In this document: piece by piece, positions 31,828 through 34,477 of the stretch
Numbering within the stretch: the first letter of the stretch is position 1
Layout of the letters: each line of letters starts with the position of its first letter
Assembly: GCF_024159085.1 (NCBI RefSeq)
Contig: NZ_JAMZDE010000008.1
Span: 186,001 to 250,000, forward strand
Direction of reading: 5' to 3'
DNA: 64,000 bases
DNA from: Idiomarina rhizosphaerae
Lineage (GTDB): Bacteria > Pseudomonadota > Gammaproteobacteria > Enterobacterales > Alteromonadaceae
Program-made: the position numbers and the translations under genes
The notes under the pieces: generated by a model
What the model was told of the DNA's origin: nothing
Database searches by the model: none
The model's input: the letters and a program-made list of their open reading frames with translations, nothing else

Positions 31828-32625
31828 TCAGAAGAATAATAAGTACAAGACAACCGCTAAGACTAAACGGTAGATAACGTAAGGCCACATACCGAACGCA
31901 TTAAGCCACTTAAGGAAGAAATGAATAGCTGTAATGGCGGTTAAAAAAGACACAATGCCGCCAATTAAAAAACCTAACCAGTCTACGGCAATAGACTCTG
32001 AAGCTATGGTTAACAACTTGACCAAAGCCGCCGCAGCCGTAATTGGAATGGCCATAAAAAATGAAAACTTTGAAGCCGATTCCCGGTTTAGCCCTAAAAA
32101 TAGCCCGGCGGTTATGGTTGCTCCAGAACGAGAGGTTCCCGGAATAAGCGCTACAGCCTGAGCAAGACCAACAATAATAGCGTCTTTAAAACCAATATCC
32201 TGCAAAGTTCGACTGCCCCGCGCAAAACGATCAGCTACAGCTAACAGCACAGCGAATACCAAGGTGGTGGTAATGATAACGCCCACAGCCCTTAGTGCTG
32301 TATCTATATAATCCAGTAACAGTATTCCGGCAATGCAGGCGGGTATAGTTCCGACAACAACGGCCCAGCCCAACCGGCTTTGTCCAACATGCTTGCGTGC
32401 AGCAATTGAACGAAGCCCGTCAACAAAGAGTTCACTCACATCTTTACGAAAGTAAAGAATTACCGCGAGTAAGGTACCGACGTGAACCGCAAGATCAAAG
32501 CCTACGCCCTGATCGTCCCAGCCGGTAAGTATAGGCATTAAAATTAAGTGAGCAGAGCTGGATATTGGAAGAAACTCGGTTATTCCCTGGATAATGCCCA
32601 GGATGATCGATTGTAAGAAATCCAT
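31828..32625 (-). CDS. uppP: Undecaprenyl-diphosphatase UppP (BacA)
   Basis: Inner-membrane enzyme that dephosphorylates undecaprenyl pyrophosphate to recycle the lipid carrier for peptidoglycan and other surface polymers; overproduction gives bacitracin resistance in relatives. Seen: 265 residues, about eight helices, the first catalytic motif GIIQGITEFLPISSSAHL near the N-terminus and the second, PGTSRSGATI, near 160. Start confirmed by family alignment of MDFLQSI. There is no ribosome site: a terminator-like hairpin and T-run end 1 nt before the ATG, so initiation may be leaderless, coupled or regulated. Confidence 0.96.
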   Translation of the reverse strand: MDFLQSIILGIIQGITEFLPISSSAHLILMPILTGWDDQGVGFDLAVHVGTLLAVILYFRKDVSELFVDGLRSIAARKHVGQSRLGWAVVVGTIPACIAGILLLDYIDTALRAVGVIITTTLVFAVLLAVADRFARGSRTLQDIGFKDAIIVGLAQAVALIPGTSRSGATITAGLFLGLNRESASKFSFFMAIPITAAAALVKLLTIASESIAVDWLGFLIGGIVSFLTAITAIHFFLKWLNAFGMWPYVIYRLVLAVVLYLLFF

Positions 32626-32710: not shown

Positions 32711-33055
32711 TTAGGCGCCACATTTACCTTCTTCTGACTTTTCACCTTTTTTCTCAGACTTTTCATGTTTCATTTCGTCACCACGCTTTCCTTCGCCGCA
32801 TTTGCCCTCTCCGCACTTGCCTTCCTTAGCTTTGTCTTTCATATCTCTTTTATCTTTCATCTCTTCATATTTTTCTTTCTTCTCTTCACCACATTTACCT
32901 TCACCACACTTCATTTCCTGTGGTTGAGACATTTCGTAGCCAGACGACAGTTCGGTGGCTTCAAAGGGATTTGCCTGAGCAGCCCCCATACTCATTGCTG
33001 AAGCGACGGAAAGAGCCGATGTAATTGCCAGAGTTTTCGATGTCAGTTGTTTCAT
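32711..33055 (-). CDS. Small exported EGKCG-repeat protein, HvfA-like
   Basis: A 114-residue secreted or periplasmic protein of low complexity. Seen: signal peptide ending AAQA (residue 28); a mature chain dominated by Lys, Glu and Gly; four exact EGKCG units (52-56, 78-82, 83-87, 109-113), a fifth that reads EGKRG (88-92), and five cysteines (50, 55, 81, 86, 112), every one in a KCG context. EGKCG repeats after a signal peptide are the mark of HvfA-type precursors, which in Haemophilus are modified by HvfB (DUF692) and HvfC to chelate copper. No such partner gene is adjacent. ATG 33055 is chosen for its AGGTGA ribosome site. Confidence 0.72.
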   Translation of the reverse strand: MKQLTSKTLAITSALSVASAMSMGAAQANPFEATELSSGYEMSQPQEMKCGEGKCGEEKKEKYEEMKDKRDMKDKAKEGKCGEGKCGEGKRGDEMKHEKSEKKGEKSEEGKCGA

Positions 33056-33136
33056 AATAATCACCTGAATTTGGTTGCCAGAGTCCCTTTAACTGTAGTT
33101 TATATTTACAATAAATAGACAATTATTTACACATTA

Positions 33137-34477
33137 TTAACGCAATATTCTGTCGTGCAAAGTGCGAATCACATTCTCGCCTTCATTGTCTGCGACAAGA
33201 AAGCATAAGTTATGTTCGCTGGCTCCCTGACATATTAGCCTCACTGCATAATCATTAACGGTGTTAAAAGTCAGCTGACTAATGTGTGCATCTCGCCCAA
33301 TGCCGTTGCCAATAATAGCAACAAGAGATAGACCAGTTTCCACTTCAACCCGACAAAATTGCTCCAGTTCTTCTAAGGCTGCTGCCGGTAATAAAGCCTG
33401 CCCATTCGCTGCACTGCCGCCTTCATCCAGAGTTAACGCAATGCTAACTTCGGAAGTGGTAACCAAATCAACACTCACGTTATACCGAGCCAATATTTCA
33501 AAAAGCCTGGCGAGGAAGCCGCTTGCATGCAACATCTTCAGACTATGAACAGTCACTAATGTCTGGTCACGGCGCAGTGCAACAGCACGAACATCGGGCT
33601 GGCTTGCAGGACTTGCAGAAATATAGGTCCCGCCAGAAAGCGCATCCTGACTGTTACCGATAAATACGCGAATGTCGTTTTTTATTGCCGGAGCCAGACT
33701 TGATGGGTGCAATATTTTTGCCCCAAAGGTGGCCAGCTCCGCTGCTTCAGAAAAGCTCATTTCCGCTATAGCGCGTGCGCTGGAGCAAATTCGGGGGTCG
33801 GTGGTATAAATGCCGGCAACATCGGTCCAAATTTGTAAATCCGTTGCATTAAAGCCTGCCGCTAAAAGCGCCGCACTGTAGTCACTTCCACCGCGGCCCA
33901 GAGTCGTTGTCTGGTCATTTTCGTCAGAACCAATAAATCCCTGCGTTACCCACACACATCCAGACTCAAGTTTTTGCTTCTGCTCCAGACAATGTGATTT
34001 TGTGGTAACTTCATCCGGCTGAGCACGACCAAAATCACTGTTGGTTTTAAGTAGCAACCGGGCATCAAGAGTACTGGAACGCAGTCCCTGCTCAACAAGT
34101 AATGAGGAAAATAGTAGGCTTGAGCAACGCTCACCAAAGCTTAGCAGTTCATCCCGCCATGAAGCCCGACCTTCCGCAACTTTTTGGCAATGAAGCGCGA
34201 GTTTATTGTGCAGTTGCTCTAATGCTTTTTGCACCTGGATGGCATTGTTAAGCTTTTTCTGAATAGCGAAATGAATCTCGTATATCTCATTTAATAGCTT
34301 TTCTACCTGCCTTCCCTGCAGGTCTGCTATCGCGACTAAGCGATTAGTTACGCCGGCGCATGCGCTCACAACAATCAGTCTAATAGATGGATTACTTTGA
34401 ATAATTTCAGCGCAGCGAAGCATTGAAGCGTAATCAGCGACGCTTGTACCTCCGAACTTTGCAACGGTAAAAGTCAC
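33137..34477 (-). CDS. lysC: Lysine-sensitive aspartate kinase LysC
   Basis: Phosphorylates aspartate, the first step towards lysine, diaminopimelate, threonine and methionine. Seen: the VAKFGGTSVAD nucleotide-binding start, GRGGSDYSAALLAAG in the kinase domain near 200, and two C-terminal ACT domains from about 300, the layout of monofunctional AK-III. Translation starts at GTG 34477 behind GGGAG. A lysine riboswitch in the 270-bp leader, with a hairpin that includes part of the ribosome site, shows feedback at expression level as well as through the ACT domains. The downstream gene on this strand is the EGKCG-repeat protein, 81 bp away. Confidence 0.95.
   Translation of the reverse strand: MTFTVAKFGGTSVADYASMLRCAEIIQSNPSIRLIVVSACAGVTNRLVAIADLQGRQVEKLLNEIYEIHFAIQKKLNNAIQVQKALEQLHNKLALHCQKVAEGRASWRDELLSFGERCSSLLFSSLLVEQGLRSSTLDARLLLKTNSDFGRAQPDEVTTKSHCLEQKQKLESGCVWVTQGFIGSDENDQTTTLGRGGSDYSAALLAAGFNATDLQIWTDVAGIYTTDPRICSSARAIAEMSFSEAAELATFGAKILHPSSLAPAIKNDIRVFIGNSQDALSGGTYISASPASQPDVRAVALRRDQTLVTVHSLKMLHASGFLARLFEILARYNVSVDLVTTSEVSIALTLDEGGSAANGQALLPAAALEELEQFCRVEVETGLSLVAIIGNGIGRDAHISQLTFNTVNDYAVRLICQGASEHNLCFLVADNEGENVIRTLHDRILR

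Follow-up and report, generated by a model that had tools for sequence, protein, structure and literature searches.

The hvfA gene between lysC and uppP

The window analysed here is a 64,000-nucleotide stretch of DNA (G000:C8:186001-250000) from a 2.87-Mb genome that is 99.9% complete. It contains a gene predicted to encode a 114-aa precursor, hvfA, which begins with an ATG start codon and lies on the same strand as its neighbours lysC and uppP. The features of the locus, in window coordinates, are the following:

33137..34477, minus strand: lysC, the upstream neighbour; an ORF, with the same neighbour in G121, G118, G124, G129 and G104
33056..33136, minus strand: the lysC-hvfA gap, which may include an hvfA promoter and 5' leader
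32711..33055, minus strand: hvfA, with a start that resembles a signal peptide, a leader box and KCG repeats; identified as an ORF with a family match, and intact at the same site in G000, G121, G118 and G124
32936..32950, minus strand: leader box LSSGY, residues 36-40; read from the translation and from LxxGY counts in other precursors
32780..32794, minus strand: degenerate unit EGKRG, residues 88-92, with no Cys to modify; in the alignment, G118 has EGKCG, G121 has EGKRG and G124 lacks the unit
31828..32625, minus strand: uppP, the downstream neighbour; an ORF, present in 19/19 genomes of the host genus

The ORFs on both sides of hvfA bear out the neighbours named in a preliminary description of this DNA, and direct reading of the coding sequence agrees with its repeat count (four EGKCG units and one EGKRG, with every Cys in a KCG context). 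The EGKCG units occupy residues 52-56, 78-82, 83-87 and 109-113, and the five Cys are residues 50, 55, 81, 86 and 112. A sixth unit, EMKCG at residues 47-51, was absent from that earlier list. Along the protein, the order is EMKCG-EGKCG, then EGKCG-EGKCG-EGKRG, then a lone EGKCG close to the C-terminus. The repeats are borne on a charged, Lys/Glu-rich chain that follows the start region NPFEATELSSGYE; by eye, this start is signal-peptide-like, with a basic start, a hydrophobic stretch and AQA-NPF.

Using the protein minus its first Met as the query, we found a match to the NCBIfam HvfA-family KCG-repeat model NF050137 (E = 1.8e-7; 30.7 bits, above the cut-off of 19.5), which places the repeats beyond chance, and a match below the cut-off to the HvfA equivalog NF050188 (E = 2.9e-10; 40.6 bits, cut-off 95), whereas a Pfam profile search returned no match. 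Because the NF050188 cut-off was missed, we file the window HvfA under the repeat family and not under the equivalog. The NF050188 score does not separate enzyme-linked from enzyme-free classes, since the operon-linked precursor of G102 scored 34 bits and three tested enzyme-free relatives scored 76, 73 and 47 bits, all higher than the window HvfA; G118 also failed (38.6 bits), and the enzyme-linked L010 passed (97.8 bits).

HvfB and HvfC are encoded elsewhere in the genome

The preliminary description called hvfA an orphan and noted that no DUF692 gene occurs in 64 kb. This is right for the neighbourhood and for the window, but it is wrong for the genome as a whole: genome-wide profile searches identified a single DUF692 match (C8:638791-639570, E = 3.9e-100) and, directly beside it, a single DUF2063 match (C8:638493-638762), about 420 kb from hvfA on the same contig. 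The orphan reading was dropped after these searches. A genome-wide search with NF050137, the model used in our precursor searches, which hence cover KCG-repeat proteins, identified the window gene and no second one. The DUF692 product, HvfB, scored 396.1 bits against NF003818 (cut-off 360) and only 262 bits against the BufB (bufferin maturase) model, which has a cut-off of 310; the DUF2063 product, HvfC, scored 236.3 bits against NF050145 (cut-off 142). The MNIO and its DUF2063 partner are thus in the same genome as hvfA, but not in the same operon, which is the common arrangement for such precursors though not a universal one.

The hvfB-hvfC pair lies downstream of TonB/ExbB/ExbD/TPR-like genes and upstream of a CheY-like gene, apt and dnaX; from their sequences, we take the genes ahead of the pair to encode TonB, ExbB, ExbD and a TPR protein. 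In G000, hvfB directly follows the TPR gene, with no ORF of at least 60 aa between them. At the same site, the congener G130 has TPR-hvfA-hvfB-hvfC, with a precursor that has two KCG and the leader LGSGY, and G102, from another genus, has TPR-hvfA-hvfB-hvfC-CheY-like. A terminator-like hairpin lies immediately upstream of hvfB (L067:9607-9632, on G000 contig C8), and we found no sigma70-like promoter between this hairpin and hvfB; expression of hvfB is therefore uncertain, and transcripts of hvfBC may have to come from the TonB/ExbBD/TPR-like genes by read-through. In G028 (L156), the TPR gene is followed by an ORF that resembles a group II intron reverse transcriptase and presumably belongs to that family.

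Among five aligned HvfB sequences, four keep the segment ERDF, and G130 has ERDS. The text of PMC12668002 proposes Asp249 of FonB as the catalytic base and describes Phe250 as conserved among Lys-Cys MNIOs; ERDF appears to map onto these two residues. In the segment GLGLRR, the second Arg is Asn in G000 and G118 and Arg in G130 and G102; this is perhaps the Arg16 site that the same text ties to the substrate Glu.

The split arrangement is conserved in four congeners, and both parts have decayed in two others

We read the uppP and TPR sites in all 19 genomes of the host genus and searched these genomes for the KCG repeat and DUF692. The split arrangement, lysC-hvfA-uppP plus TPR-hvfB-hvfC, occurs in four of them (G000, G121, G118 and G124). 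Conservation of the EGKCG protein in close relatives, listed as a check in the preliminary description, is borne out by hvfA being intact at the same site in the last three. The family search, run at E = 0.001, missed the hvfA of G121, yet it is plainly present between lysC and uppP.

Two other members of the same six-species clade, G129 and G104, have neither part intact; both retain remnants of hvfA at the lysC-uppP site and of hvfC at the TPR site. In G129, the hvfA remnants give a 145-base match with 81% identity (E = 1e-35), and hvfC is present as two pieces (E = 2e-53 and 2e-34). In G104, lysC runs into the tail of hvfA (36 bases, E = 4e-10), and hvfC is represented by its tail only (29 bases, E = 4e-4). 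Among the controls, no match in the lysC-uppP gaps of G128, G132 and G119 improved on E = 0.06, and none was obtained in the G132 TPR gap. Genome searches of G129 and G104 yielded neither a KCG-repeat match nor an HvfB gene. The sole DUF692 gene of G104 has no KCG precursor beside it and scored 293 bits against the bufferin model (cut-off 310) and 201 bits against HvfB (cut-off 360); by these scores, it is bufferin-like.

The bufferin-like clusters of G104 and G028 (L088, L089) comprise a small exported CYG...C protein, a BufB-like MNIO, a further gene at the position usual for DUF2063 and one that resembles DoxX; all but the MNIO were judged by eye.

Based on a tree of UppP and TPR, G129 and G104 are not sisters, as G104 groups with G124 (95/85). 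Two losses are therefore likelier than one, and both parts probably decayed independently in G129 and G104. If the losses of the two parts were independent, two losses would coincide with two losses among six species with a chance of 1 in 15, so we treat the paired loss as support and not as proof. The clade amounts to a natural experiment, in which a precursor and its enzymes, once unlinked, were kept or lost together, and this argues for modification in trans.

The same co-loss weighs against a reading in which HvfBC serve another, unrecognised precursor and the window hvfA is independent of them. Such a partner could have gone unnoticed if it is a non-KCG precursor, a type that escapes the searches used. 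We nonetheless find this quite improbable: the window hvfA is the sole KCG-repeat gene found in its genome, the interval from TPR to hvfB offers no ORF of the size searched for, and HvfB scores as an HvfB and falls short as a BufB.

At the lysC-uppP site of the other 13 genomes of the genus, 11 have lysC directly followed by uppP without hvfA, and G130 and G131 have other genes. An hvfABC cluster lies beside ltaE in four of the 13 (G028, G119, G125 and G132) and at the TPR site in one (G130); in the remaining eight, the KCG-repeat and DUF692 searches both came back without a match. The ltaE-linked hvfABC of G028, G132, G119 and G125 (L064, L069, L070 and L073) are a second lineage with its own HvfB clade. 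An origin of the relocated hvfA from ltaE-linked hvfABC was considered as a possibility; the HvfB of the split clade forms a lineage separate from the ltaE HvfB and joins G102 with low support (87/48). A possible split in a different genus was seen in G036 (L013), where an LSSGY precursor and the single DUF692 gene of the genome are ~59 kb apart; two of the three KCG matches in this genome were located.

Selection on hvfA and conservation of its flanks

Strong purifying selection acts on the relocated hvfA. Across 111 codons, G000 and G118 differ by 42 synonymous and 10 nonsynonymous changes (dN 0.048, dS 1.8); the comparison of G000 with G124 gives the same two counts in 105 codons. Within codons 1-41, five diverged pairs show 0 nonsynonymous and 19-22 synonymous differences, and the sixth pair, G000-G121, shows none of either kind. 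The single control gene used for this start-region comparison encodes the TPR protein, which also has a signal-like start; its codons 1-28 show 3-4 nonsynonymous and 1-3 synonymous differences across six pairs. Such strict conservation of a putative signal peptide suggests recognition by a further factor in addition to Sec. According to the text of PMC13419390, removal of the signal sequence leaves Haemophilus influenzae HvfA poorly or hardly modified, and PMC12452194 mentions preliminary evidence of a similar nature for a bufferin.

The EGKRG unit is common to G000 and G121, its aligned place is EGKCG in G118, and it is missing in G124. The Cys in G118 fits the proposal in the preliminary description that a site is being lost, but with one Cys-bearing species the direction of change is unproven. 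Because position-4 variants were not processed in the experiments described in PMC12668002, EGKRG should be inert. We did not accept it as proof of decay, the whole gene being under purifying selection. Together with the short repeat array and the decayed copies in G129 and G104, EGKRG could also be taken to mean that what remains of hvfA at its new site is a relic in the course of being lost; given the strength of purifying selection among four species, we find this scarcely credible.

The 84 bases ahead of hvfA, which include the lysC stop, are identical at 81/84 positions (96%) between G000 and G124 and at 73/84 (87%) between G000 and G118; the 85-base hvfA-uppP gap is identical at 79/85 (93%) and 80/85 (94%), respectively. 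Conservation of the upstream gap was not accepted as a sign of special regulation, the downstream gap being about equally conserved. The lysC-hvfA gap possibly holds hvfA's own promoter and 5' leader. Searches around hvfA for a sigma70-type promoter or a terminator gave matches no better than those in shuffles.

Between G000 and G121, hvfA has 3 silent changes and 1 amino-acid change, and the TPR gene has 95 silent and 31 amino-acid codon changes; recombination at the lysC-hvfA-uppP stretch between these two genomes is possible (L090/L091; TPR L143/L145).

Enzyme-free relatives and the LxxGY leader box

In a family sample of 118 genomes, we identified the KCG repeat in 89 and DUF692 in 85. Comparison of the two lists gave 20 genomes, from 10 genera, with the repeat but no DUF692; the KCG match was repeated in 20/20, and DUF2063 was found in 0/20 by the same search that found it in 6/6 other genomes. 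Completeness is at least 90% in 17 of the 20, and seven are listed as single contigs. Their precursors, extracted with a filter of three KCG or more (which misses the two-KCG precursor of G130), have 8-17 Cys, nearly all in KCG, and mixed synonymous codons across the repeats. All 20 precursors adjoin at least one of the markers that flank hvfABC elsewhere (dusC, TPR, CheY-like, apt and dnaX), although in 8/20 the sole marker is dusC, and these are the least secure. In records from Pseudoalteromonas and Shewanella, hvfABC is bordered by the same markers. These positions fit in-place loss of hvfBC in the enzyme-free genomes.

We scored the motif LxxGY ahead of the first KCG or within the first 60 residues. 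We fetched 80 HvfB loci (best identity 61%; top among the matches listed were Alteromonas, Rheinheimera, Neiella and an Alteromonadaceae MAG) and excluded 20 that lack an ORF of at least two KCG within 3 kb, several of which have precursors with other Cys motifs or sit at contig ends. LxxGY is present in 57 of the remaining 60 loci, which have a KCG precursor no more than 3 kb from the HvfB match; the three misses are a near-variant, LSMAY (L181), an ORF at a contig start (L198) and one true absence (L246). In the host genus, the box occurs in 8/8 loci from eight species, with G130 (LGSGY) outside this count. It also occurs in 24/27 precursors from DUF692-bearing family genomes, a biased sample that comprises the best-scoring of 69 such genomes, and the misses there are one masked sequence and two genus g8 precursors that are not beside a DUF692 gene. 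In the enzyme-free genomes, 0/20 precursors have LxxGY (Fisher test of 24/27 against 0/20, p = 1.8e-10, with kinship ignored).

HvfB-adjacent ORFs at L178, L215 and L229 have EGSCG-type or EGTCG-type repeats and not EGKCG.

KCG proteins evidently persist without the enzymes, since 20 of the 89 precursor-bearing family genomes keep their Cys while lacking both DUF692 and DUF2063. The HvfA of the window organism might likewise escape modification and serve as a thiolate-based buffer for metals or redox, which is the probable role of the proteins in these enzyme-free relatives. We regard this as unlikely for the window organism. Its LSSGY box, a motif seen in none of the enzyme-free precursors, places its HvfA with the enzyme-dependent class; moreover, the enzymes are present in G000, and hvfA decayed in both clade members that lost them.

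We tentatively suggest, as a proposal a little short of an even call, that LxxGY marks two functional classes of HvfA-like proteins. Precursors with the box would need HvfBC, even at a distance of 420 kb, and those without it would be enzyme-free, thiolate-based periplasmic metal or redox buffers that persisted after hvfBC were lost in place at the dusC/TPR-RR-apt-dnaX site; in these, a RiPP precursor would have become an ordinary metallothionein-like protein. The box need not be a strict requirement, since the text of PMC12668002 reports that, in a shortened FonA, no single residue before the core was essential. As a simple marker, it is suggested to distinguish likely-modified precursors from those in enzyme-less genomes and could guide experimenters in their choice.

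A probable split system working in trans

We consider it likely that HvfBC modify the window HvfA in trans to a copper-binding thiooxazole peptide, as a split MNIO RiPP system. In the ancestor of the six-species clade, hvfA would have come to lie between lysC and uppP, and hvfB (a DUF692 iron oxidase) and hvfC (its DUF2063 partner, with a RiPP-recognition domain) would have stayed at the old site after TonB/ExbBD/TPR. In the cytoplasm, before export, HvfBC would recognise HvfA through the conserved signal and leader region, including ELSSGYE, and would oxidise up to five KCG Cys to copper-binding 5-thiooxazoles; EGKRG would be unable to react. Sec would then export modified HvfA as a periplasmic copper buffer. 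The lone C-terminal EGKCG may stay unmodified, because PMC12668002 describes a one-repeat peptide as unmodified in vitro.

That the enzymes act in trans was one of two options raised in the preliminary description, and it is supported by the adjacent DUF692/DUF2063 pair above the HvfB and HvfC cut-offs and by co-retention and co-loss in the six-species clade. The thioamide chemistry given there has since been superseded: the product has been reassigned from oxazolone/thioamide, with PMC12668002 and PMC13419390 both assigning it as 5-thiooxazole in their text. Split systems of this kind will escape RiPP mining in which the genes must be neighbours.

Comparison with known systems

Stand-alone EGKCG precursor genes were already known. 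The text of PMC12452194 describes such genes and considers that bufferin precursors away from an MNIO might be modified by enzymes encoded elsewhere, or might stay unmodified; its Buf_EGKCG/oxazolin family has the same repeat type as the window HvfA. In the parts of its main text covered here, there is no conserved split backed by synteny, selection and co-loss. More broadly, our literature search, which covered parts of the main texts, turned up neither the LxxGY box nor a conserved split. In Table 3 of PMC12452194, 67/2583 Buf_EGKCG genomes are without MNIO genes; these MNIO-less genes share the KCG repeat, and our family sample contains the 20 such genomes described above, whose precursors differ from the window HvfA in lacking LxxGY.

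The HvfABC (oxazolin) system of H. influenzae, as described in the text of PMC13419390, likewise has EGKCG repeats and HvfB/HvfC-family enzymes, and its signal peptide has a putative counterpart in the signal-peptide-like start of the window HvfA. There, however, the genes form an operon and the precursor has six KCG Cys, whereas in G000 the two parts are ~420 kb apart and HvfA has five such Cys plus EGKRG. Fontiphorin FonABC (PMC12668002) and Microbulbifer MmrABC (PMC12538549) also combine EGKCG precursors with an MNIO and a DUF2063 partner, as in G000, but in the texts of these reports the genes are clustered, and they belong to different genera.
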